NCBI GenBank assembly: GCA_030837965.1
Contig: JAUTXP010000004.1
Location: forward strand, 1-64,000
From: Acidimicrobiaceae bacterium
Lineage (GTDB): Bacteria; Actinomycetota; Acidimicrobiia; Acidimicrobiales; JAUTXP01
DNA: 64,000 nucleotides
Direction: 5' to 3'
Positions within the stretch are counted from its first letter, which is position 1, and the number at the start of each line of letters is the position of its first letter. Of this stretch, positions 18,156 to 32,963 are shown piece after piece. The notes under the pieces are model-generated. The model saw only the letters and a program-made list of their open reading frames with translations, had not been told where the DNA came from and searched no databases. A program made the translations under genes and the position numbers.

Positions 18156-18273
18156 TTCCCCTGGTACCTGCGCCGACGGGCAGGACCGGACCCGTCCCCG
18201 TCGAAATGGACGACAGGACGTGGCGCCCCGGCATTCCCGCGCGGGCCGGTGCCACTCGATCGAAGGGGCGCAC

Positions 18274-20247
18274 GTGAGACGAGCAGCCGTCGCCGAGCCC
18301 GACTGCATTTCCGAGGACTTGAGCACCGAGGACTTGATCACCGAGGACGTGCCGACCGAGGGCCTGTCGAACGAGGACCTGCCGAACGTCCTGCTGGAGG
18401 CGGCCGAACTCCCCGCCCCTCCCGGCCCGGACGACAGCGCCGTGAGCGCCGCCGGGCCCGCGGCGGGCCCGAGTCGCCGCCACCTCCTGCGGGCCCTGCT
18501 GGCCGGCGGCGCCGTGGTCGGCGGGGCCGTGGTCCTCGACCGCACGGCCACGCCTGCTTCGGCCACTGGCGTCGGCCCGCTGTTCAACGTCACCGACTAC
18601 GGCGCGGTGGGCAACGGCACGACTGACGACCGGGCTTCGGTGCAGTCGGCCATCGACGCGGCCCACGCGGCGGGCGGCGGCACCGTGTTCTTCCCGGCGG
18701 GCACCTACCTCCTGTCGATGCGCTTCGACCATTCGCCCGCGGTGTACGCGCTCGACATCTACCCGGGCATCGTGCTGCGAGGGGCCAACCGGGGCGCGTC
18801 GGTGCTCAAGGTGGCGTCGGCCGCCAACGGCGCCACCGGCGGCGACTGGACCGCCGTCCTCCTGCAACGGGATGCGTCCACGCCGGTCGACGACTTCGTC
18901 CTCGAGGGCCTCACCATCGACGGCAACAGCGCGGGGAACGCCATCACGTCGTCCAGCCTGGCCAACGCCACCACGGCCGGGCGCCACGCCCTGCACGTGA
19001 GCACCGGGGCTCGGATCGCGGTCAGGGACTGCCGGTTCAGCAACGTCGGCGATGTGCGCCACGTCCTTTGGCTCAACGGCGACGCCAGCGGGGACGGCAC
19101 GGCGCGCGTGACCGACACCGTCATCGAGGGCAACGTGATCGACGGGGTCGGCTCATCGAGCATCGACCATGCCCACGCCTCGATCTACTGGGCGGGCGAA
19201 GGGCTGCGCTGCACGGGCAACGTCCTGCTGGGCAAGGCCCCGACGGCCATCGGCGCGGGCACGGCCATCGAGGGGCGCGGGAGCGACATCCAAGTCGAGG
19301 ACAACGACATCGAGAACTACACGGTCGCCATCGCCGCCGCCGCGGTGCAGTCGTGGGAGGGCGCCCAGAACGACGTGGCCCACAACACGGCCAGGGCCGT
19401 GGCCGTCGGAGTCCTGCTCTCGTCCAAGCAGTCGGGTACCCACACGAGCGGGTTTGGTGCCAATGGGGTCGACATCCACCACAACCAGGTCACCGTGGAC
19501 CGCGACGCGTGGGCGACTCGGTCCGCGGGCGCGCCGGCCATCGCCGCGGGCGTCGCCCTCGACACGGCCAACGACCTGCCACTGGCCGACGTGCAGGTGC
19601 GCGACAACCAGATCCGGTTCGCACAGTCGTCCACGGCCTCCGTGGCAGCCGACGCGGGCGGCGGTGGCGTGGTGTGGAGCCGCAGCGGGTCGTTCTCCGA
19701 CAACGACGTTGCCGTGGTCGGCAACTTCGTGGACTCGCCCCTCGCCGCGGGCGTGCTGGTGAACGCGGGCGTGGCCCGCCTCGACGTCATCGGCAACTCG
19801 GTCCTGAACCCCGGGAGTGCGGCGAGTGGGTCGATGCCCGCGAGTGGCCGGGTCGGGATCAGCGTGGGCAATCCGGCAGGGTCGTCGCTGGCCGACGTGC
19901 GCATCGACGGCAACGAGGTCTTCGACGGCCGCACGCCAGTCGTCATGACGTCGGCCGTGCGCTACGCCCCGCAAGGGACGGTGGTCAACGCCCAGGCCAT
20001 GGACAACGTGGTGCGGGCCATGGACCCGGGCGCGGCCATCGCGGTGGCCGACAGCACCACGACCACGGCCAACGCGCTGTTCCTGCGGGCCCGGTGCCCG
20101 TCGTGGATACAGCCGCCGGGCATCTACCGGTTCGGCTCGACGGTGACGACCGAGGGCACGGTGGCGCTGGCGGGCTCGGGGGCCATCAGGGTCCAGCAGG
20201 CGGCGGGAGCAGGCTCGACGTGGACGTCGACCCTCACCTCGCTGTGA
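18274..20247 (+). CDS. Tat-exported right-handed beta-helix (pectate-lyase-like) protein
   Basis: 657 residues from GTG 18274, which follows AAGGGG. An acidic N-terminal region of about 50 residues contains five-residue repeats (SEDL, STEDL, ITEDV, PTEGL, SNEDL). The twin-arginine signal SRRHLLRALLAGG follows, with cleavage near ASATG. The mature protein starts with the pectate-lyase-3/beta-helix entry motif (NVTDYGAVGNGTTDD, then GGGTVFFPAGTYLLS) and continues with many short repeats such as VRDNQIRF and IEGNVID. It ends in a small beta domain (PPGIYRFGSTVT and IRVQQAAGAGSTW) shared with the next gene. Likely an extracellular polysaccharide lyase/hydrolase or binding protein. The long acidic pre-Tat region is unusual. 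Confidence 0.85.
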   Translation: MRRAAVAEPDCISEDLSTEDLITEDVPTEGLSNEDLPNVLLEAAELPAPPGPDDSAVSAAGPAAGPSRRHLLRALLAGGAVVGGAVVLDRTATPASATGVGPLFNVTDYGAVGNGTTDDRASVQSAIDAAHAAGGGTVFFPAGTYLLSMRFDHSPAVYALDIYPGIVLRGANRGASVLKVASAANGATGGDWTAVLLQRDASTPVDDFVLEGLTIDGNSAGNAITSSSLANATTAGRHALHVSTGARIAVRDCRFSNVGDVRHVLWLNGDASGDGTARVTDTVIEGNVIDGVGSSSIDHAHASIYWAGEGLRCTGNVLLGKAPTAIGAGTAIEGRGSDIQVEDNDIENYTVAIAAAAVQSWEGAQNDVAHNTARAVAVGVLLSSKQSGTHTSGFGANGVDIHHNQVTVDRDAWATRSAGAPAIAAGVALDTANDLPLADVQVRDNQIRFAQSSTASVAADAGGGGVVWSRSGSFSDNDVAVVGNFVDSPLAAGVLVNAGVARLDVIGNSVLNPGSAASGSMPASGRVGISVGNPAGSSLADVRIDGNEVFDGRTPVVMTSAVRYAPQGTVVNAQAMDNVVRAMDPGAAIAVADSTTTTANALFLRARCPSWIQPPGIYRFGSTVTTEGTVALAGSGAIRVQQAAGAGSTWTSTLTSL

Positions 20248-22076
20248 GCGAGACCGAGGCTTCACCTGTGGCCGACATGCCCGCCGCAGGCCGGGCCAGT
20301 CGACGGCACTTCATCCAAGCCGGCCTCGGCAGCGTGGCTGCCGTCGGCCTCGTCGGTCGGAGCCAGGCCCGGGCCGACGCCACGCCGCCTCCGCCCTACT
20401 ACAGCGTCAAGGACTTCGGTGCGGTGGGCGACGGCGTGGCCGACGACCGGCCCGCCATCCAGGCCGCCATCAATGCGGCCAACGCCGCGGGCGGCGGCGT
20501 CGTCGCCATCCCTGCGGGCACCTACCGCATGACGCTGGCGGGCAACCCGCCCTACCTCTACTGCCTCCAGATCTATCCGCGCATCACGCTGGCCGGGTCG
20601 GGGGCGGCGTCTGTCCTGCGGATCACGTCGAACGCCAACACGGGCGCGGCCGACGGCGACTGGAGCGCCATCATCCTGCAAGCCGACGCGGCCGTGGCGG
20701 CCGACGACTTCGCCATGCACGACCTCACCGTCGACTGCAACGGCTCGGGCAACCCGATCAACTCGCAGAGCATGACGGCGAGCGGCTATCACGCCCGCTT
20801 CGCCGTGCAGATCCTCAAGGGCGACCGCATCCGGGTCGAGCGCTGCCGCTTCACCGACATCGGCGACAACATCAACACGCTGGTGCTCAACGGCGACATC
20901 AACCCTGGCCTGGGGTGGCAGATCAACAACGCCACCATCTGCGACAACGTGTTCGAGGGCATCGGCCTGTCGACCATCGCCCACGACCACTCCACGATCT
21001 ACTGGATCGGGCACATCCTCCAGTGCCGTAACAACCGGTTCACGGCCCGGTCGCGCGGTGTGGCCGGTGCGGTGTGCGCCATCGAGACCCATGGCGCGCG
21101 CCAGCACGTCACCGGCAACTCGATCAAGAACTTCATGAACGGCATGAACATCTCCGGGGTGCAGTCGTTCCTGGCCGACCAGATCGAGGTGGCCGACAAC
21201 ACCATCCGGGGTGTGGCCTTCGGCATGTGGCTCTACGGCCTCACCTATGGGGGCTACCAGACTGGTTACGGCATGCGCGACGCGCGCGTCCACGGCAACC
21301 AGATCACGTTGGACCGCGAGCAGTGGATCGCCCGATGGGGCGGCTTCCCCGCGTCCATCGTCACCGGCATCACCATCGACGCGGCCAACTCGTTGGCCTT
21401 CAAGGACGTGCGTATCGACAACAACCACATCCGCTTCCTGCCCACGACGTCGGCGAGCACGGCCTCCGACTTCGAGAGCAGCGGGGTGCTGTGGTTCCGC
21501 AACGTCAACAACGTGGTGGACGAGGACGTGAGCATCTGCGACAACACCGTCCTCGACGCCCATGGCACCGGCATCTACTTCAGCGCGCTGGCCAAGCGGG
21601 TGGACATCTGCGGCAACTCGGTGATCAACCCGGGGAGCGCGCCTGCGGGGGCCTTCGCCGGCACCGACTTCAGCCGGAGCGGGATCCTGCTCAGCGCCCC
21701 CAACGGCCCGGCCCTGACCGACGTGCGGGTCAACAACAACCGCGTCGTCGACAGCCGTTCGACCCGCAAGGTGAACACGGTCATCGCCCTGATCGCCCAA
21801 GGCCGGGTGACCAACTGCGAGGCCCTCGACAACGAGGTGACCATCGCCGACACCACCTCGCCCGCGCTGCCGGTCGTCAACGGCCCCCAGTTCCCGGTGT
21901 CGGCCTTCTTGGTGCGAGCCCGGGCCAACCAGTGGGTGACGCCGCCCGGGTGGTTCCGGTTCGGGTCCAGCGTCACGGTGGCGGGCACGCCGGGCACGGC
22001 GGGGTCCGGCAGCGTCAGGGTCCAGCAGTCGTCGGGCGCAGGCACGACCTGGACCATCACGACCACGTCCGTCTGA
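20244..22076 (+). CDS. Tat-exported beta-helix protein, paralogue of the previous gene
   Basis: 610 residues, GTG overlapping the upstream stop (GTGA), so it is translated together with its paralogue. It has the Tat signal SRRHFIQAGLGSVAAVGL, then the same beta-helix entry motif (SVKDFGAVGDGVADD, GGGVVAIPAGTYRMT), repeated short strands (VRIDNNHIRF, ICDNTVLDA) and the same C-terminal domain (PPGWFRFGSSVTV, VRVQQSSGAGTTW). Unlike the first copy it has only a short N-terminal extension before the twin arginines. The pair looks like an old tandem duplication. Extracellular polysaccharide-active function is likely; the substrate is unknown. Confidence 0.86.
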   Translation: MSETEASPVADMPAAGRASRRHFIQAGLGSVAAVGLVGRSQARADATPPPPYYSVKDFGAVGDGVADDRPAIQAAINAANAAGGGVVAIPAGTYRMTLAGNPPYLYCLQIYPRITLAGSGAASVLRITSNANTGAADGDWSAIILQADAAVAADDFAMHDLTVDCNGSGNPINSQSMTASGYHARFAVQILKGDRIRVERCRFTDIGDNINTLVLNGDINPGLGWQINNATICDNVFEGIGLSTIAHDHSTIYWIGHILQCRNNRFTARSRGVAGAVCAIETHGARQHVTGNSIKNFMNGMNISGVQSFLADQIEVADNTIRGVAFGMWLYGLTYGGYQTGYGMRDARVHGNQITLDREQWIARWGGFPASIVTGITIDAANSLAFKDVRIDNNHIRFLPTTSASTASDFESSGVLWFRNVNNVVDEDVSICDNTVLDAHGTGIYFSALAKRVDICGNSVINPGSAPAGAFAGTDFSRSGILLSAPNGPALTDVRVNNNRVVDSRSTRKVNTVIALIAQGRVTNCEALDNEVTIADTTSPALPVVNGPQFPVSAFLVRARANQWVTPPGWFRFGSSVTVAGTPGTAGSGSVRVQQSSGAGTTWTITTTSV

Positions 22077-23997: not shown

Positions 23998-24092
23998 CAG
24001 CCACAGCGTCGCAAACGGGTGCAGCGGCGACGCGGGCCACGCCACGCCCACGCCCACGCCGCAAACGGATTCTGAAATATTAGACATGGCTA

Positions 24093-24120
24093 TTGCCATG
24101 TCAGATAGCACCTGTACCAT
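24093..24120 (+). promoter_or_regulatory. Promoter of subtilase copy 1
   Basis: TTGCCA (24093-24098) and TACCAT (24115-24120) separated by 16 bases, in the same arrangement as before copies 2 and 3. The ribosome-binding site AGGGAGG at 24138-24144 and the GTG start at 24152 follow. Confidence 0.6.
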
Positions 24121-24151: not shown

Positions 24152-26212
24152 GTGCACAGTGACGCCGTTCGCAAGACTCGGCGCGGGCGCTGGCTGGTAG
24201 CGCTGCTCGCGTCGATCGGGACCATGGTCGCCATACCTGCGGTGCAGACCGGGGCGGCCACGTTGCCGCCGCCGGCCACCAAAGAGGCACACGGCCACAT
24301 CGAGGCGGTCACGGGACCGGTGGACTCGTCCCGCGCCGAGGAGTGCGCCGGCACTCCCGCAGGCCTTCAGGGCTCGGCCTGGCTGGTCGAGGGCGTCACG
24401 CCGGGGCAGATCTTCCGCCTCACGGCCGACGCAGGAACGTGGCGGGACGACTTCGACGTCACCTTCTACATCTCGCTGGCCGGATGCCGGGCCAACCAGC
24501 CCCGGCTCCCCTACTCCAACCACGCGGGCGACGAGAACTCGGTGGTGCCGACCAACGCAGGCATCGCCGTGGTGACGCTGGCCAGCGGACAGTCAGGTGC
24601 CGCCTTCACGTACAAGCAGTTCGCGGCCACGCCCGCCGTCCCCGTAAGGCGCCCGGATGCGCGGAGGCCCACCGTCATCGCCATCATCGAGCCGACCGGC
24701 GTGGAGACGGTGGGCGGCGCCAACGGGTTCAGCCCGTACCACGTCGACTTCCTCGGCAGCAAGCACCCGTGGAACAACGACGCGGACACGATCAACAACA
24801 TCGACTTCAACGCCGACCCGTCGACCTATGTCCCCGGATACACCGGGGCCGAGCGGCTCGACCTGCACCTCCCGACGCTGGACAACGAGCCTGTGCTCCC
24901 GCTGGCCACCGCCGACCACGCGGCATGGACGTCGATGAAGGTGTCGACGCTCGACGCCCCCCACCCCTACTGGCTGGCCGGCACCAAGGTCATCGCCGCC
25001 CTTCAGTTCAGCGGAGACATGCACCGACGCGACGACAACGGCGGTCACGCCACCATGTCGGCCTCAGTGTCGGGAGGCAACGTGAACGGCACCTGCCCCG
25101 AGTGCCTCTTCGTCTGGATCGGCGCCTCCTCCGTGAGCTCGCAAACCCAGGCGATCGAATGGGCGGCCAAGCAGCCATGGATCGACGTGATCAGCAACAG
25201 CTACCAGCTCAGCGGAGCGGCATATGACGGCGTGGCCTTGAGCAACGTGGTCTCCAGCCACACGAAGAGCGCGGTGGCCGACAAGGGCAAGATCGTGGTG
25301 TGGGCGAGCGGCAACGGGGCCGATGACGCCTTCATGGTCCCGCAGTGGACCTACTGGAACACCCAGAAGGGCCCGGACTGGGTCGTGACGGTGGGCGGAC
25401 TCAGCCCTGTGAACGACCAGCCCTTTCGCGGCGGCCAGCCCGTGGACGTGATCGCCTACGGCCAGCAGTACCCCGTGGCGAGCGGGGGTTTCGTGAACAG
25501 CTCTGGCACGTACTCGGGAACGTCGAACGCCACCCCGGTCACCGCAGGCACACTGGCCCACATCATCCAGCTCGGCCGAGACGTCACGGGCGACACGTGG
25601 ACCGGCCCGCGGGACCCGCAGCTCATGGCCGACGGCAAAAAAATCCCGTGCGCCGCTGGGGTGCCCCGTTGCCCCTTGGAAGACGGCAAGTTGTATCGCC
25701 AAGAGGTCGAGCAGACCCTGTTCGACAATGTGTTGCCGTCGCCGCCGCGGCCCCTGCCCCAAGGGACGAGCGTGGCGCCGCCATCCCCGATGATCTCGAT
25801 CCCCGTCGCCGGAGGAAGTGGCGCACTCGACCCCAACAGCCTCCCCATCGACGAGGTCCGGACCCTTCCCGCCGTCAACTCGTACCAGACCGAGGGCCAC
25901 GGAATCGTTTACGGCCGGTTGGACACCGGTCGGTTTGCAGCCGAGCAGCGTCGGCTGCAAGACGGGCTGCTCGGGCAGACCGCCCCCTACGTCCGGCCGC
26001 CCGCCGAACGCACCTGGATGACGGTGGACTCGAAATGCAGGCAGCGCCTGTGGGGCACATGGGACATGGGCTACTACCACGGAACCCTGCCCACGTTCGA
26101 CCCCGCGGTTGACCAGGTGGCCATGACCTGGAACGGGTGGTGCGACCGGGTCACCCAGGACGCATTCGCTAACGCGCCCGCGGACCCTGACCTCCCGAAG
26201 ACGTTCCGCTAG
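24152..26212 (+). CDS. Secreted subtilisin-fold protein, copy 1
   Basis: 686 residues from GTG 24152 (AGGGAGG site). A Sec signal peptide (RKTRRGRWLVALLASIGTMV, cleavage near TGAAT) precedes a beta-rich domain (about 45-160). A subtilisin-like domain (about 170-480) follows, then a conserved C-terminal region with MTVDSKCRQRLWGTWDMGYY. Active-site positions: His299 in GGHAT, oxyanion Asn388 in SGNG and Ser458 in SGTSNATP match S8 peptidases. The Asp strand reads VIAIIEPTG, with Glu180 where Asp is expected. The protein is either a peptidase with an unusual acid residue or a catalytically weak relative. Long insertions (about 205-295) lie between the first two motifs. First of four tandem paralogues; a hairpin follows. 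Confidence 0.82.
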   Translation: MHSDAVRKTRRGRWLVALLASIGTMVAIPAVQTGAATLPPPATKEAHGHIEAVTGPVDSSRAEECAGTPAGLQGSAWLVEGVTPGQIFRLTADAGTWRDDFDVTFYISLAGCRANQPRLPYSNHAGDENSVVPTNAGIAVVTLASGQSGAAFTYKQFAATPAVPVRRPDARRPTVIAIIEPTGVETVGGANGFSPYHVDFLGSKHPWNNDADTINNIDFNADPSTYVPGYTGAERLDLHLPTLDNEPVLPLATADHAAWTSMKVSTLDAPHPYWLAGTKVIAALQFSGDMHRRDDNGGHATMSASVSGGNVNGTCPECLFVWIGASSVSSQTQAIEWAAKQPWIDVISNSYQLSGAAYDGVALSNVVSSHTKSAVADKGKIVVWASGNGADDAFMVPQWTYWNTQKGPDWVVTVGGLSPVNDQPFRGGQPVDVIAYGQQYPVASGGFVNSSGTYSGTSNATPVTAGTLAHIIQLGRDVTGDTWTGPRDPQLMADGKKIPCAAGVPRCPLEDGKLYRQEVEQTLFDNVLPSPPRPLPQGTSVAPPSPMISIPVAGGSGALDPNSLPIDEVRTLPAVNSYQTEGHGIVYGRLDTGRFAAEQRRLQDGLLGQTAPYVRPPAERTWMTVDSKCRQRLWGTWDMGYYHGTLPTFDPAVDQVAMTWNGWCDRVTQDAFANAPADPDLPKTFR

Positions 26213-26238
26213 CCAGGACACCCACCCCTCAGCGTGCC

Positions 26239-26270
26239 CGTGCACGGTGGACACCCGTCCACCGTGCACG
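26239..26270. terminator. Hairpin after subtilase copy 1
   Basis: Perfect 14-bp stem (CGTGCACGGTGGAC) with a 4-base loop, 27 bases after the stop codon. No U-tract. Confidence 0.7.
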
Positions 26271-26304
26271 CCGCAAACGGATTCGGAAACATCTGATTGG
26301 CCTA

Positions 26305-26332
26305 TTGCCATATCAGATGACAGATGTACCAT
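26305..26332 (+). promoter_or_regulatory. Promoter of subtilase copy 2
   Basis: TTGCCA (26305-26310), 16-base spacer, TACCAT (26327-26332). The spacer and flanks include an inverted CATCTGA/TCAGATG pair around the -35 element, a possible regulator site. It is followed by the same AGGGAGGTGCTGG leader as copies 1 and 3. Confidence 0.6.
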
Positions 26333-26360
26333 CTGACCCACATCGCTAGGGAGGTGCTGG

Positions 26361-28433
26361 GTGCACACTGGGGACGCTGTCCGAAAGACCCGTCGCGGGC
26401 GCTGGCTGGGGGCGCTGCTCGCGGCGGTCGCGACCACGGCCGCCATACCCGCAGTCCAAAGCAGTGCTGCGAACCTGCCGCCGCCGCCTGCGCCGACCAA
26501 AGAGGTGCACGGCCACATCGACACCGCCACCGGGCCGGTCGATACGACCCGTGCCGAGGAGTGCGCGGCCACCCCGACCGGCCTCCAAGGCTCCGCTTGG
26601 CTGGTCGACGGCGTGACGCCGGGCCAGATCTTCCGCCTGACGGCCGACGCGGGCACGTGGCGTGACGACTTCGACGTCGCCTTCTACGGATCGCTGGCCG
26701 GATGCCGGGCCAACGAGGCCCGCATTGTGTTCTCGAACCACGCGGGCGACGAGAACTCTGTCGTGCCCGCGGGCGCAGGCATCGCAGTCGTGACCCTCGC
26801 CACCGGGAAAGCAGGCGCGGCCTTCGCGTACAAGGAGTTCGCGCCCGCCCCGGCCGTCCCGGTGAAGTTGCCGGGCGCACGCCGACCCACTGTTGTGGCC
26901 ATCATCGAGCCCATCGGCAGCGACAGCGTCAACGGGGTCAACGGGTTCAGCCCGTACCACCTCGACTTCCTGGGCAGCAAGCATCCGTGGAACAACGACG
27001 CGGACACGCTCAACAACATCGACTTCAACGCCGACCCGGCGACCTATGTCCCCGGCTACACCGGGGGCGAGCGCCTCGACCTGCACCTGCCCACGTTGGA
27101 CAACGAGCCAGTGCTCCCGTTGGCCACGGCCGACAATCTGGCGTGGAGATCGATGAAGAACTCCACGCTCGACGCACCGCACCCCTATTGGCTGGCCGGC
27201 ACCAAGGTGATCGCCGCGTTGACGTTCAACGGGGACCTTCATCGCCGTAATGACAACGGCGGCCACGCCACGATGGCATCGTCGGTGGCGGCGGGAAATG
27301 TTCACGGTACGTGTCCTGAGTGCCTGTTCGTGTGGATCGGGGCCTCCAGCGTGAGCACGGAGTCGCAGGCGCTCGAATGGGCAGCCAAGCAGCCGTGGAT
27401 CGACGTGATCAGCAACTCCTACGAGATGAGTGCGGCCTGGCACGACGGCGTCACATTGGGCAACGAGACCTCGAGCCGGACGAAGAGCCTGGTGGCCGAC
27501 AAGGGAAAGATCGTCGTGTGGGCGGCAGGCAACGGGGCCGACGGCGCGTTCATCGCCCCCCAGTCCACATACTGGTCGACCCAGAAGGGCCCGGACTGGG
27601 TGGTCACCGTCGGCGCCCTGACTCCGGTCAACGACCAGCCCCTTCGAGGTGGGCAGCCGGTCGACGTCATCGCCTACGGGGAGCAGTACCCGTCGGCTGG
27701 CGACACCGTGGTCAACGGCCAGACCACCTTCTCCGGCAGCTCGAATGCCACGCCGGTGACCGCAGGAACGCTGGCCCACATCATCCAGCTCGGCCGGGAC
27801 GTCTTGGGCGACTCGTGGACCAGCCTGCGGGACCCGCAACTGGTGGCCGAGGGCAAGCGCATTCGATGTGCGCCGGATGTGGCCAACTGCCCACTGGACG
27901 ACGGGAAGCTGTACCGGCAGGAAGTCGAGCAGACCCTGTTCGACAATGTGCTCCCGTCGCCGCCGCGGCCGTTGCCCCGAGGCACGACCGTGGCGCCGCC
28001 GTCGCCCATGCTGTCGATTCCCGTCTCCAGCGCCCCCGCCGCCGTCAGCCCCAACACGGCTCCGCTGGACGAGATCCGGTACCTCCCGGCCGTCAACTCC
28101 TATCAGACCGAGGGCCACGGGGTGGTCTACGGCAAGCTGGACGCCGGCCGCTTCGTGGCCGAGCAACGCCGCCTTCAGGATGGGCTGCTCGGCCAAGTTG
28201 GTCCCTACGCCCGCCCGCCCGCAGAGCGCACGTGGATGACCGTGGACTCCAAGTGCAGGCAGCGCCTGTGGGGCATATGGGGCATGGGCTACTACCACGG
28301 CCAGCCCCTGACCTTCGATCCGGCCGTCGATCAGACGGCCATGGCCTGGAACGGATGGTGCGACCGAGTCGTCCAGGACGCGTTCGCCGATGGCCCTGCG
28401 AACCCGGAGTTGGGGACGCCCTCGACCGGCTAG
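26361..28433 (+). CDS. Secreted subtilisin-fold protein, copy 2
   Basis: 690 residues, closely similar to copy 3 from promoter to stop. Signal peptide with RKTRRGRWLGALLAAVATT, N-terminal beta domain, subtilisin-like domain and the conserved C-terminus. His is in GGHATM, Asn in AAGNGADG, Ser in SGSSNATP; the acid position is again Glu (VVAIIEP). The segments DFLGSKHPWNND and APHPYWLAGTKVIAAL, specific to this paralogue group, are conserved with copies 1 and 3. It has its own promoter, leader and terminator hairpin, so each copy is an independent transcription unit rather than part of an operon. Likely exported and possibly peptidoglycan- or surface-associated; the target is unknown. Confidence 0.82.
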   Translation: MHTGDAVRKTRRGRWLGALLAAVATTAAIPAVQSSAANLPPPPAPTKEVHGHIDTATGPVDTTRAEECAATPTGLQGSAWLVDGVTPGQIFRLTADAGTWRDDFDVAFYGSLAGCRANEARIVFSNHAGDENSVVPAGAGIAVVTLATGKAGAAFAYKEFAPAPAVPVKLPGARRPTVVAIIEPIGSDSVNGVNGFSPYHLDFLGSKHPWNNDADTLNNIDFNADPATYVPGYTGGERLDLHLPTLDNEPVLPLATADNLAWRSMKNSTLDAPHPYWLAGTKVIAALTFNGDLHRRNDNGGHATMASSVAAGNVHGTCPECLFVWIGASSVSTESQALEWAAKQPWIDVISNSYEMSAAWHDGVTLGNETSSRTKSLVADKGKIVVWAAGNGADGAFIAPQSTYWSTQKGPDWVVTVGALTPVNDQPLRGGQPVDVIAYGEQYPSAGDTVVNGQTTFSGSSNATPVTAGTLAHIIQLGRDVLGDSWTSLRDPQLVAEGKRIRCAPDVANCPLDDGKLYRQEVEQTLFDNVLPSPPRPLPRGTTVAPPSPMLSIPVSSAPAAVSPNTAPLDEIRYLPAVNSYQTEGHGVVYGKLDAGRFVAEQRRLQDGLLGQVGPYARPPAERTWMTVDSKCRQRLWGIWGMGYYHGQPLTFDPAVDQTAMAWNGWCDRVVQDAFADGPANPELGTPSTG

Positions 28434-28452
28434 TCAACTCGCCGACTCCTCT

Positions 28453-28493
28453 GCGGGGCAGGTCGCGCTCTTTCCGTGCGCGGCCTGCCCCGC
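28453..28493. terminator. Hairpin after subtilase copy 2
   Basis: Ten-bp stem GCGGGGCAGG/CCTGCCCCGC extended by a GCGC/GCGC inner stem, 19 bases after the stop. The outer stem is identical in the hairpin after copy 3, so the duplication unit included the terminator. Confidence 0.7.
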
Positions 28494-28565
28494 TGTCGCG
28501 TCTCCGGGGACATGGCGTCGACCCATTACGCCGAAAACGGATTCCAAGAACATCTACGTGGCCTA

Positions 28566-28593
28566 TTGCCATATCAGATGCCAGATGTACCAT
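28566..28593 (+). promoter_or_regulatory. Promoter of subtilase copy 3
   Basis: TTGCCA (28566-28571), 16-base spacer, TACCAT (28588-28593), followed by the same leader and ribosome-binding site as copy 2. An ACGGATTC box about 30-40 bases upstream of the -35 element is present before all three copies. Confidence 0.6.
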
Positions 28594-28621
28594 TCGACCC
28601 ACATCGCTAGGGAGGTGCTGG

Positions 28622-30697
28622 GTGCACACTGGGGACGCTGTTCGAAAGACCCGTCGCGGGCGCTGGCTGGGCGCGCTGCTCGCGGCGGTCGCGACGATGG
28701 CCGCCATACCCGCAGTCCAAAGCGGCGCCGCGAACCTGCCGCCGCCGCCTGCGCCGACCAAAGAGGTGCACGGCCACATCGACACCGCCACGGGGCCGGT
28801 CGACACGAGCCGCGCCGAGGAGTGCGCGGCCACGCCGACGGGCCTCCAAGGCTCCGCTTGGCTGGTCGACGGCGTGACGCCGGGCCGGATCTTCCGCCTG
28901 ACCGCCGACGCGGGCACGTGGCAGGACGACTTCGACGTCGCCTTCTACGGATCGCTGGCCGGCTGCCGGGCCAACCAGCCCCGCATTGCGTTCTCGAACC
29001 ACGCGGGCGACGAGAACTCGGTCGTGCCCGCCAACGCAGGCATCGCGGTCGTGACCCTCGCCAACGGAAGGCCCGGTGCGGCCTTTGCGTACAAGGAGTT
29101 CGCATCCACCCCGGCCGTCCCGGTGAAGCGCCCAGACGCACGGCGGCCCACCGTCATCGCCATCATCGAGCCGCTTGGCAACGACCCGGTCGGCGGGGCC
29201 AACTCGTTCAGCCCCTACCACGTCGACTTCCTGGGCAGCAAGCACCCATGGAACAACGACGCCGACACGCTCAACAACATCGACTTCAACGCCGACCCTT
29301 CCACCTATGTCCCGGGCTACACCGGGGGCGAACGGCTCGACCTGCACCTGCCCACGTTGGACAACGAGCCGGTGCTCCCGTTGGCCAAGGCCGACGGTGT
29401 GGCGTGGAGCTCCATGAAGTCGTCCACGCTCGACGCCCCGCACCCCTATTGGCTCGCGGGCACCAAGGTGGTCGCTGCCCTGCGATTCGGCGGGAACATG
29501 CACGGCCGCGATGACAATGACGGGCACGCCACCATGGCCTCCTCGGTGGCGGGCGGCAACGTCAACGGCACCTGCCCGGAATGCCTGTTCGTGTGGATCG
29601 GCGTCGCCTCCGAGGGGCTCGGGCTCCAGGCCCTGGAATGGGCGGCCAAGCAGCCGTGGATCGACGTGATCAGCAACTCCTACGAGATGAGCGCGGCCTG
29701 GCACGACGGCGTCTACCTGAGCGACGTGGCCTCGAGCCGGACGAAGAGCCTGGTGGCGGACAAGGGCAAGATCGTCCTGTGGGCGGCTGGGAACGGGGCC
29801 GACGGCGCCTTCATCGCCCCCCAGTCCACCTACTGGTCCAGTCAAAAGGGCCCCGACTGGGTGGTCACGGTGGGCGCCCTCACGCCCAGAAACGACCAGC
29901 CCCTGCGCGGCGGCCACCCGGTGGACGTCATCGCCTACGGCGAGCAATACCCCTCCGGCGGCGGCACGCTGGCCAACAGCAGGACCACCTTTTCGGGCAG
30001 CTCGAACGCCACGCCGGTGACGGCGGGCACCATCGCCCACATCCTTCAGCTCGGACGCGATGTGATGGGCGACAGCGCAAGCACAACCCGCGACCCGCAA
30101 ATCATGGCCTCGGGCAAGGCCTTCCCGTGCGCCTCAGGCGTTTCGCACTGCCCGCTCGAGGACGGCAAGCTCTACCGGCAAGAGGTGGAGCAGATCCTGT
30201 TCGACAACGTGCTGCCGTCGCCGGCCCGGCCGTTGCCGCCCGGAACGACTGTGGCTCCGCCGTCGCCGATGCTTTCCCTGCCGGTTTCTGCCGCACCCAC
30301 GAAGGTCGATCCCGACACGGTTCCCTTGGACGACATTCGGAACCTCCCGGCCGTCAACTCGTACCAGACCGAGGGTCACGGAATCGTCTACGGCCGGCTG
30401 GACTCCAGCCGCTTTGCGGCCGAGCAGCGTCGTTTGCAGGATGGGCTTCTCGGCCTGGTCGGCCCGTACGTCCGGCCGCCCGCTGAGCGCACCTGGATGA
30501 CCGTGGACTCAAAATGCAGGCAGCGGCTGTGGGGCACATGGGACATGGGCTACTACCACGGCCAGCCGCTGAACTTCGATCCGGCCGTCGATCAGACGGC
30601 CATGGCTTGGAACGGCTGGTGTGACCGGGTCACCCAGGACGCCTTGGCCGACGCGCCTGCCAATCCGGACCTGCCCAACGCTCCTACAACCGGCTAG
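28622..30697 (+). CDS. Secreted subtilisin-fold protein, copy 3
   Basis: 691 residues from the GTG placed exactly as in copy 2; the frame is open further upstream across the preceding terminator and promoter, which is not coding. Same architecture: signal peptide (RGRWLGALLAAVATMA), beta domain, subtilisin-like domain and C-terminal CRQRLWGTWDMGYYHG. His is in DGHATM, Asn in AAGNGADG, Ser in SGSSNATP and Glu replaces Asp in VIAIIEP. One small difference from copy 2 lies around IGVASEGLGLQ, a surface stretch before the helix LEWAAKQPWIDV. Such local variation between close paralogues may reflect different targets. Confidence 0.82.
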   Translation: MHTGDAVRKTRRGRWLGALLAAVATMAAIPAVQSGAANLPPPPAPTKEVHGHIDTATGPVDTSRAEECAATPTGLQGSAWLVDGVTPGRIFRLTADAGTWQDDFDVAFYGSLAGCRANQPRIAFSNHAGDENSVVPANAGIAVVTLANGRPGAAFAYKEFASTPAVPVKRPDARRPTVIAIIEPLGNDPVGGANSFSPYHVDFLGSKHPWNNDADTLNNIDFNADPSTYVPGYTGGERLDLHLPTLDNEPVLPLAKADGVAWSSMKSSTLDAPHPYWLAGTKVVAALRFGGNMHGRDDNDGHATMASSVAGGNVNGTCPECLFVWIGVASEGLGLQALEWAAKQPWIDVISNSYEMSAAWHDGVYLSDVASSRTKSLVADKGKIVLWAAGNGADGAFIAPQSTYWSSQKGPDWVVTVGALTPRNDQPLRGGHPVDVIAYGEQYPSGGGTLANSRTTFSGSSNATPVTAGTIAHILQLGRDVMGDSASTTRDPQIMASGKAFPCASGVSHCPLEDGKLYRQEVEQILFDNVLPSPARPLPPGTTVAPPSPMLSLPVSAAPTKVDPDTVPLDDIRNLPAVNSYQTEGHGIVYGRLDSSRFAAEQRRLQDGLLGLVGPYVRPPAERTWMTVDSKCRQRLWGTWDMGYYHGQPLNFDPAVDQTAMAWNGWCDRVTQDALADAPANPDLPNAPTTG

Positions 30698-30713
30698 CAA
30701 GACCCTCAAGACG

Positions 30714-30754
30714 GCGGGGCAGGCTGCGCTCTTTCACGGCGCAGCCTGCCCCGC
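30714..30754. terminator. Hairpin after subtilase copy 3
   Basis: Perfect 16-bp stem (GCGGGGCAGGCTGCGC) with a 9-base loop, 16 bases after the stop codon. It is the strongest hairpin of the cluster. Confidence 0.75.
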
Positions 30755-30871
30755 TGGCGCGTTTCGTCCGGTTTCCCGGCAGGAACCGGGGCGCCCGCCG
30801 TGGAACTGCACAGCCATCGTTCTGTGATTTAACTCGTCGTGTTTGATATGTCACTGACCCGAGGGGGCCAC

Positions 30872-32890
30872 ATGTTGCAAGCCAACGCAGGGACCGGCCG
30901 CGTGCGTCGACGCCGGTTCATCACCGTGGGCCTGGCCGCCCTGGCCATGGCGGTCCCGTCCGTCGCTCGGGCAGGCACGACGAGCTCGTCGTCCTCGGAC
31001 CAAGAGGTGCACGGCGTGGTGACGTACCCCACGGGCCTGCCCCGCAACGGCGGCGCGCCGGTGCGATGCGCAGCCAACGGGCAAGGCGTGCCCGGCACGA
31101 CCGCGACCATCGCGTCGGTGACGCCGGGCAAGTCGTTCGCCCTCACCGCCGACTCGGGCACGTGGGAGGCCGACTTCGACATCGCCTTCTACAGCGCGGG
31201 ACCGGTGTGCACGGGCACGACTGCGGCGACGGCGCTGCCGTACCGCAACATGGGCGGGGACGAATACGGCGTCGTCCCGGCCAACGCCACCATGGCTGTG
31301 GTCAGCCTGGTGTCGGACAGCCAGAAGCAGGCCTTCACGTACCGCGAGTACGTCCCCGCTCCGGTGGCCCTGCGCAACGCCGACCAGCAAAAGCCCACGG
31401 TGGTGGCCATCATCGAGCCCCTCGTGCTGCTTGACAATCTCCAGGGCAAGGCCAACGGCTTCAGCCCTTACCACTTGGACTTCTCGGGCGCCGAGCACCC
31501 GTGGAACCGGGACGGCAACAGCCAGAACGACATCGACTTCACGGTCGACCCTTCGCCTTGGCTCCCCGGCTACCCAGGCGCCACGCCGGTGCAGATCACC
31601 GTCCCCACCACCGCCGATCAGGACGTGTCCACGCTGGCGGCTGGCCCCGACAAGGACGCGTGGGCGTCCATGCAGGCATCGACGCCGGGCGACGTCCACC
31701 TGTACCGCCTGCCGGGCACGAAGATCGTGGGCGCGGCGACGTTCTCCTTCGCGCCGAGCAGCCTCATTCAGTTGGACACGCCCACCATCTACAGCCCCCA
31801 GAACCTCGAGGCCCACGGCACCAAGACCTCGTCGGTGGCCGCGGGGAACATCCATGGCTCGTGCCCTGAGTGCGTGCTGGTGCTGCTGCGGGGCAACGCG
31901 GCAGCCGCCATGGCGTGGGCCACGGCCCAGCCGTGGATCGACGTCATCTCCAACTCCTACGGCGCGGCCGGGGGCTTCCCCTCGGCTGACCAGCCCACCC
32001 GGCTGCGCATGCGCGACGCGGTAACGGGCGGACAGACCATCGTGTGGTCGTCAGGCAACGGCGCCGAGGGCAATGCCACGGTTCCCGCCTTGGACTACTT
32101 CGACGACCGTCCGGGCAGCGACTGGATCGTCACCGTGGGGGGCGTGGAGCCTTCGGGCGAGCAGCCCGACGGGGCCTCTCGGCCCGTGGACCTGGCCTCG
32201 TACGACATCTCGTACTGGTCGGCGGGCGGCACGACTGCGGGCGGGCAGACCCTCTTCGGGGGCACGTCGAACGCGGCGCCGGTCGTGGCCGGCACGTTCG
32301 GCGAGACCCTCCTGCTCGGCCGCTCGCTCCTCGGCGACACCGCGCCCGGTCACGCCGACGGCGTGGTCGCCCAGGGCGCGCCCCGGCCGTGTGATGGCGG
32401 CGGGTCCACGTGCGTGCTGAGCGACGGCGTCCTGACTCGGGCCGAGTTGCAGGACACGATCTATACGAGCGTGTATCCGTCCCCGCCTCGCTACGACGGC
32501 TTCGGACCCGCAGGCCCGGTGAACACCGCGCTCACGTCAGCCCACCCTTTGCCCATGAGGCCCACCTACACGGCGCAAGGGCACGGCGTCGTGCACGGGC
32601 GGCTGTCCGAGGCTCGGTACCAGGCCGAAAAGCGCGGCTTCCTCGACGCCCTGCGTGGAGCGGGGGCGCCCGCGGTGCGTCCGCCGGGCGAGCGGAAGTG
32701 GATGACCGCAGACTCCATGTGCAGGCAGCGCCTTTGGGGCAACTGGGACTTCGGCTACTTCCATGCCGGCGACCCGGCTCCTGCGTTCGACCCTGCTGTC
32801 GACGCCCCGGCCGCAGCCATGTGGCAGTGGTGCTCGAACGCCCCGCAGGACTTGGGCCAAACGGTCGGCGGAGACGACACCGGCCTCTAA
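30872..32890 (+). CDS. Secreted subtilisin-fold protein, divergent copy 4
   Basis: 672 residues from the ATG with GAGGGGG upstream; in-frame starts at 30839 and 30848 are less likely. The signal peptide begins with RVRRRRFITVGLAALAMA, possibly Tat-type. The domain order is as in copies 1-3 but identity is much lower and the promoter block is not shared. Key residues: Glu in VVAIIEP (again replacing Asp), His in AHGTKTSS, which is closer to the usual subtilisin HGT motif, Asn in SSGNGAEG and Ser in GGTSNAAP. The C-terminus keeps MTADSMCRQRLWGNWDFGYF. It shows that the Asp-to-Glu change predates the recent duplications. Probably the older founder-type member of the cluster. Confidence 0.8.
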   Translation: MLQANAGTGRVRRRRFITVGLAALAMAVPSVARAGTTSSSSSDQEVHGVVTYPTGLPRNGGAPVRCAANGQGVPGTTATIASVTPGKSFALTADSGTWEADFDIAFYSAGPVCTGTTAATALPYRNMGGDEYGVVPANATMAVVSLVSDSQKQAFTYREYVPAPVALRNADQQKPTVVAIIEPLVLLDNLQGKANGFSPYHLDFSGAEHPWNRDGNSQNDIDFTVDPSPWLPGYPGATPVQITVPTTADQDVSTLAAGPDKDAWASMQASTPGDVHLYRLPGTKIVGAATFSFAPSSLIQLDTPTIYSPQNLEAHGTKTSSVAAGNIHGSCPECVLVLLRGNAAAAMAWATAQPWIDVISNSYGAAGGFPSADQPTRLRMRDAVTGGQTIVWSSGNGAEGNATVPALDYFDDRPGSDWIVTVGGVEPSGEQPDGASRPVDLASYDISYWSAGGTTAGGQTLFGGTSNAAPVVAGTFGETLLLGRSLLGDTAPGHADGVVAQGAPRPCDGGGSTCVLSDGVLTRAELQDTIYTSVYPSPPRYDGFGPAGPVNTALTSAHPLPMRPTYTAQGHGVVHGRLSEARYQAEKRGFLDALRGAGAPAVRPPGERKWMTADSMCRQRLWGNWDFGYFHAGDPAPAFDPAVDAPAAAMWQWCSNAPQDLGQTVGGDDTGL

Positions 32891-32904
32891 CCCGCCCCCC
32901 TCTC

Positions 32905-32941
32905 CAACTTTTCCACAGCACCTGCTGCTGTGGAAAAGTTG
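32905..32941. terminator. Hairpin between subtilase 4 and the Rrf2 gene
   Basis: Perfect 16-bp stem (CAACTTTTCCACAGCA) with a 5-base loop, between two convergent genes, so a bidirectional terminator is likely. Confidence 0.7.
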
Positions 32942-32963
32942 AGGGGGCGGCGCGATTCGGGAG

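Follow-up and report, generated by a model that had tools for sequence, protein, structure and literature searches.

Tandem subtilisin-type proteins with glutamate at the place of the catalytic aspartate in an Acidimicrobiaceae bacterium

Four tandem genes and their paralogues

The window, a stretch of 64,000 nucleotides from an Acidimicrobiaceae bacterium (contig JAUTXP010000004.1, positions 1 to 64,000), carries four tandem genes for S8-type (subtilisin-like) proteins in which glutamate is found where the catalytic aspartate would be expected. All of the four genes lie on the forward strand. Copy 1 (24152-26212) starts with GTG and encodes a putatively secreted protein of 686 residues with the putative triad E180-H299-S458 and the oxyanion residue N388. 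Copy 2 (26361-28433, 690 residues) and copy 3 (28622-30697, 691 residues) are each 78% identical to copy 1, and both have E183-H302-S461 and N391. Copy 4 (30839-32890, 683 residues; E193-H326-S477 and N407) is divergent, with 42% identity to copy 1. The start of copy 3 at 28622 was assigned by homology within a longer open frame (27320-30697), and the catalytic Ser of copies 2 and 3 was placed by the G-[TS]-S-N-A motif. The overall layout is the same in the four proteins: a basic hydrophobic N-terminus, an N-terminal domain of about 120 residues to which no Pfam entry matched, the S8 domain, and a C-terminal part that contains CRQRLWG. The N-termini fit a signal peptide, and secretion is therefore predicted. 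The signal region of copy 4 contains RRRRFI, which resembles a twin-arginine translocation (Tat) signal.

The acid strand reads AIIEP in all four copies (E180, E183, E183 and E193, respectively), and the Glu codon is GAG each time (24689-24691, 26907-26909, 29168-29170 and 31415-31417, forward strand). The source genome (3.55 Mb, 88 contigs) gave 15 S8 matches, seven of which are window-type, namely the four window copies and one paralogue on each of the contigs C3, C45 and C47. Glu-Pro ends the acid strand in all seven, so that none has the Asp which ends this strand in the classical D-H-S triad, and the catalytic His, the oxyanion Asn and the Ser are invariant. Since three further paralogues have Glu-Pro, chance can be excluded for the window copies. 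Therefore, the initial sequence-only reading, a Glu at the Asp place with His, Asn and Ser kept in four copies, holds and extends to three more proteins. The Pfam Peptidase_S8 profile (PF00082) scored above its curated cut-off of 21.8 bits in all seven paralogues, the four window copies included (42-66 bits). The C3 paralogue is closer to copy 4 than copies 1-3 are. Asp is present in each of the remaining eight S8 genes of this genome (VVDTG, VIDGG, LIDTG, VIDTG, VVDTG, LVDTG, IVDTG and VADTG). Long tryptophan-rich repeats (GNWYG, SQWAG, TRWSA) were seen at the end of ordinary Asp-type S8 proteins of this genome (L043, L044 and L046).

Position of the glutamate and the turn behind it

The nearest relative (44-53% identity) reads VVDSGFSPYHYDF where the window proteins read AIVEPNGFNPYHVDF. 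In the alignment, the acid strand is VTVVAVVD-SGFSPYHYDFLGSQHPWN in the relative from genome G682, PTVVAIVEPNGFNPYHVDFLGSEHPWN in the C45 paralogue and PTVIAIIEP-(9)-NGFSPYHVDFLGSKHPWN in copy 1. The strand of the G682 type aligns with the window strand, and therefore the Glu occupies the Asp position; in all seven paralogues, the Glu falls in the column where every one of the 11 Asp rows has its Asp. Along with the Glu come a Pro and a turn that is longer by 1-12 residues. Asp-Ser-Gly of the Asp type corresponds to Glu-Pro-(0 to 11 residues)-Asn-Gly in the Glu type (Asn-Ser in copy 3), and the residues between Pro and Asn number 9, 9, 9, 11, 7, 0 and 5 in copies 1-4, C3, C45 and C47, respectively. 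In copy 1, the variable loop inserted between the Glu and the GFSPYH motif runs from P181 through nine residues to N191 (24692-24724, forward strand), whereas the Asp relatives have only one residue there (S, T, N or F).

The residues that all seven Glu paralogues share and that occur in none of the 11 Asp rows are, besides E180 and P181, P173, D222, W384, G475, R533, R594 and T624 (copy 1 numbering). In the PYHxDF motif, the Asp, which corresponds to a calcium ligand (Asp41) of subtilisin, is present in the Glu and Asp kinds alike and is therefore not a substitute for the catalytic acid. Among the seven Glu paralogues, the acid and the His are 110-133 residues apart (119-133 for the four window copies), compared with 97-133 for the Asp rows, and the CRQ region was also found in the Asp-bearing relatives L011, L037, L038, L039 and L082. 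Therefore, the long insertions and CRQRLWG, which had been pointed out at the outset as atypical features, are ancestral family traits unrelated to the Glu. Their use as marks of a new function tied to the Glu was dropped, as the Asp relatives carry them too.

Relatives in other genomes

Family searches were carried out with a seven-row alignment; the source genome is counted in most tallies and the genome sets overlap. Within the same order, 22 of 397 genomes gave matches (E up to 0.001), and those that were strong, apart from the own genome, were confined to G029 and G017. Further matches were obtained in 2 of 395 genomes of the class, 5 of 396 of the phylum and 3 of 397 in the set of relatives, as well as in 1 of 3 genomes in the order of G682, 3 of 16 in that of G767 and 7 of 170 in that of G1021. 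A scan of GTDB contigs gave two loci, one on a Frankiaceae metagenome-assembled genome (MAG; L011) and one on a Euryarchaeota MAG (L012). No relative was found among the viral contigs, phages and plasmids searched, and the PDB sequence search returned ordinary subtilases only, none of them strongly similar.

Among 25 family relatives from other genomes, the acid is Asp in 18 cases and Glu in 6, with one left unread; this tally is kept apart from the source genome and from 19 order-level S8 loci. The latter, found with the paralogue profile in other genomes (L016-L034), have Asp in 18 of 19, and the acid strand of L020 was unreadable by the pattern used. The Asp relatives (P0013 from G682, the Frankiaceae L011, and those from G767, G825, G1031, G1146, G1171 and G1183) resemble the window proteins in the PYHxD motif, the long insertion between acid and His, and a CPEC-type motif; those read to the end also have a CRQ-type C-terminal region. 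They differ in the turn, where Asp is followed by two residues (SG, NA, FT or SA) instead of Glu-Pro-xn-Asn-[GS], and the rows from G682, L011, G767 and G825 are without the N-terminal domain of about 120 residues that the window paralogues have. The G682 relative matches the Glu paralogues in its strand and in its PYHxDF motif, and the Glu paralogue P0007 and the Asp enzyme P0013 share 53% identity in the catalytic part. Two copies of Asp-type relatives per genome were observed in G1031 (L087 on contig C42, in tandem) and G1146 (L086 and L093). Therefore, local duplication is not confined to the Glu kind.

Another set of Glu proteins was found via the genome G1021, in the order to which that genome belongs. 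It consists of L067 (ESG) and L077, L078, L079 and L080 (GED, GEP, GES and GEI) from the genomes G1021, G1171, G1075, G1031 and G1153. Like the window proteins, they have Glu as the acid together with an intact His, Asn and Ser, and their turn is one residue longer (E plus three residues) in four of the five rows, which is comparable to the lengthened window turn. Unlike the window proteins, they have NVLH for PYH and no CRQ region, and they form a remote, separate clade. G1031, G1021 and G1171 have this lineage and the Asp-type family in the same genome. One member, P0021, scored 17.6 bits against the Pfam cut-off of 21.8, and therefore annotation may miss proteins of this lineage. The sixth Glu row, the archaeal L071, was not trusted as it is without the oxyanion Asn. 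On its Euryarchaeota MAG contig, an S8-like domain with EP and a following FHIPEP (FlhA) domain lie in a single frame (L071:595-3336); the contig is probably chimeric, or else the fusion is an odd one.

Tree and origin of the change

Trees were computed without the columns of the acid loop. The 26-row tree omits the long branches L071 and L073, and the fuller L094 stands for L082b; G883, G1134, G1045 and L068, a fragment without the acid strand, are in no tree. The seven Glu paralogues formed one clade with support of 99/97 in the earlier tree and 99/98 in the 26-row tree. The change is thus old and shared by the divergent copy 4, as the sequence-only reading had supposed. In the enclosing clade of 17 rows (100/99, 26-row tree), all of the non-paralogue rows have Asp (n=10; n=6 in the earlier tree), and G682 is the sister of the Glu paralogues with moderate support (86/86). 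Most simply, the direction in the window clade would be from Asp to Glu.

A single clade of all Glu rows was rejected by the approximately unbiased (AU) test, with p-AU of 4e-5 in the 26-row tree and, in the earlier tree, 5e-4 with L071 and 6e-4 without it, although the test joins far lineages, the tested group was named after the sequences were seen, and the deep part of the tree is limited by long branches. The rejection means that Asp and Glu were exchanged at least twice. Therefore, the origin of the window Glu looks independent of that in one or more other Glu lineages. For the second Glu lineage, the change could have run in either direction.

Selection and duplication

Copies 1-3 are under purifying selection. 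The ratio of nonsynonymous to synonymous substitution (dN/dS, Nei-Gojobori) was 0.19 for copies 1-2, 0.20 for 1-3 and 0.20 for 2-3. The values against copy 4, about 0.6, are unreliable because dS is near 1. The least conserved blocks of 15 residues among copies 1-3 include 181-195 (the loop after the Glu), 361-375, 436-450 (just before the Ser), 481-510, 556-570 and the last residues. Several of them lie where subtilisin binds its substrate, which suggests that the specificity of the three proteins may have diverged.

An element with the inverted repeat ATGGC-TATT-GCCAT (core TGGC-TATT-GCCA) precedes copy 1 (24086-24120), copy 2 (26298-26332) and copy 3 (28559-28593), all on the forward strand. 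Therefore, the duplicated unit takes in the promoter region. Each of the three genes is probably transcribed on its own, and the element is a possible operator. It was found nowhere else in the genome, including before copy 4, with up to three mismatches allowed. Its use as the mark of a regulon was dropped, since only copies 1-3 carry it.

Discussion

The overall result makes it probable that the four proteins are secreted, active subtilisin-fold serine peptidases with a Ser-His-Glu triad, and that they form an independent lineage of the E-H-S type. In the mechanism we propose, the Glu at the strand end, in place of the catalytic Asp, would be the hydrogen-bond acceptor for the catalytic His, and the rebuilt turn, from Asp-Ser-Gly to Glu-Pro-(0 to 11 residues)-Asn-Gly, would absorb the extra side-chain carbon. 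An Asp enzyme would have acquired the Glu a single time in this lineage, and duplication would then have given at least seven copies. These would have diverged mostly in loops at the surface and the active site, probably altering their choice of substrate. In savinase, the acid segment is the tetrapeptide Leu31-Gly34, which forms a hydrogen-bonded zone together with His64 and Asn123-Ser125 (PMC11593635). Judged by alignment, the change from Asp-Ser-Gly to Glu-Pro-xn-Asn-Gly is a rebuilding of the corresponding segment.

A subset of subtilases with Glu in place of Asp (E-H-S) was reportedly described by Siezen, Renckens and Boekhorst in 2007. The 'E-H-S family' is already in print, and one of its members, SprP (PA1242) of Pseudomonas aeruginosa, is an active protease; its predicted triad is E262, H299 and S499, it cleaves skim milk protein and Suc-AAPF-pNA, and the S499A form is inactive (PMC3937732). 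Since Glu stands where Asp would be and both His and Ser are retained, the window type can be counted, by its residues, among the E-H-S subtilases. SprP and the window proteins alike combine an S8 domain that carries the predicted Glu-His-Ser triad with a signal peptide, which is predicted for the window proteins. On the other hand, SprP is described in that text as a protein of 590 residues with a 233-residue domain of unknown function (DUF) and a Glu-His spacing of 37, whereas the window copies have 683-691 residues, a spacing of 119-133, the CRQRLWG C-terminal region and nearest kin that bear Asp. The sedolisins (S53) also combine the subtilisin fold with the use of Glu; there, the triad is Ser-Glu-Asp with Glu as the base (PMC11593635, PMC9549277). 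In the sedolisins, Glu replaces the catalytic His, whereas the window-type paralogues keep His as the base in 7 of 7. The Ser-His-Glu arrangement had been called unusual for S8 peptidases at the start; unusual it is, but not unprecedented, given the published family and the active SprP. A Ser-His-Glu triad is likely in the window proteins and would not be new in kind. What appears to be new is the independent origin with a longer turn, next to the expansion to seven genes in one genome and the presence of close Asp relatives.

Several results weigh against this interpretation. The AlphaFold models of mature copy 1 (mean pLDDT, the predicted local distance difference test score, 44.4) and of the Asp-bearing L011 protein (35.5), each from an alignment of six rows, are both poor, and the proposed Glu-His contact accordingly stands on the alignment. 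With the copy 1 model, the best Foldseek hit was a subtilisin-like protease with template-modelling (TM) scores of 0.17/0.29, and kumamolisin was also among the best hits, all at low TM. The Pfam S8 alignment begins past the acid strand, at profile position 46-50 in the four window copies and 39-51 in all seven paralogues, whereas it begins at position 2-4 in the Asp relatives (4 of 4 scanned). The family searches gave no Glu-Pro member of the window type, with the PYHxDF and CRQ regions, outside the source genome. The accessible text on SprP describes no mutant of its Glu (PMC3937732), and within the open-licence literature, as far as its text is accessible, neither a report on the role of the Glu in E-H-S subtilases nor a structure was found. 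Finally, D222 (codon 24815-24817 of copy 1, forward strand) arose together with the Glu, judging from the seven Glu paralogues and 11 Asp rows.

The last point raises another candidate for the acid. D222 or some other acid might now partner the His, with Glu180 left as a structural remnant or a tuner of the pocket. Apart from the Glu, D222 is the only acid that all seven paralogues share and none of the 11 Asp rows has, and its stretch is conserved, with HPSxYxxGY in several relatives becoming DPSxYxPGY in copies 1 and 3. However, Glu180 is itself unchanged in 7 of 7, exactly at the end of the strand, while D222 lies 42 residues beyond it within a family-specific insertion, and the second Glu lineage has no Asp matching D222 in the part of the alignment examined. 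We consider this exchange of acids quite unlikely. Loss of catalysis would be a different matter, in which the proteins are pseudoproteases with a binding or cell-surface role. The replacement of a catalytic residue and the seven copies in one genome would suit it, but the unchanged His, oxyanion Asn and Ser in 7 of 7, the purifying selection on copies 1-3 and the reported activity of SprP (PMC3937732) all speak for working enzymes, so that lost catalysis also seems unlikely. The identical triad letters might instead mean that the Glu was inherited from the E-H-S family of 2007 and is not new. The nearest relatives found, the 10 Asp rows of the 17-row clade, argue against such descent, as does the Glu-His spacing of 37 given for SprP, compared with 110-133 in the seven paralogues; SprP itself is in no tree. 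Common descent with that family is thus very improbable.

The independent Ser-His-Glu lineage therefore remains the interpretation we prefer. A wider suggestion, put forward tentatively, is that the acid of subtilases has changed between Asp and Glu at least twice, and that a longer turn may be a repeatable fix which lets the longer carboxylate serve the same His. Asp is far commoner than Glu in catalytic triads, and the reason is an old question. The Asp-bearing relatives are close enough to make an acid swap testable. With a Glu/Asp pair of 53% identity (P0007 and P0013) and a defined turn insertion, it becomes possible to measure directly what the switch costs and how it is compensated.

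Neighbouring features

Two tandem beta-helix proteins (Pect-lyase_RHGA_epim; 18220-20247 and 20268-22076) adjoin the protease array. Their N-termini are twin-arginine-like and their C-terminal ends are alike. At the other side, a long inverted repeat (32891-32963) lies between copy 4 and a convergent gene for an Rrf2-type regulator, and it looks like a shared terminator.

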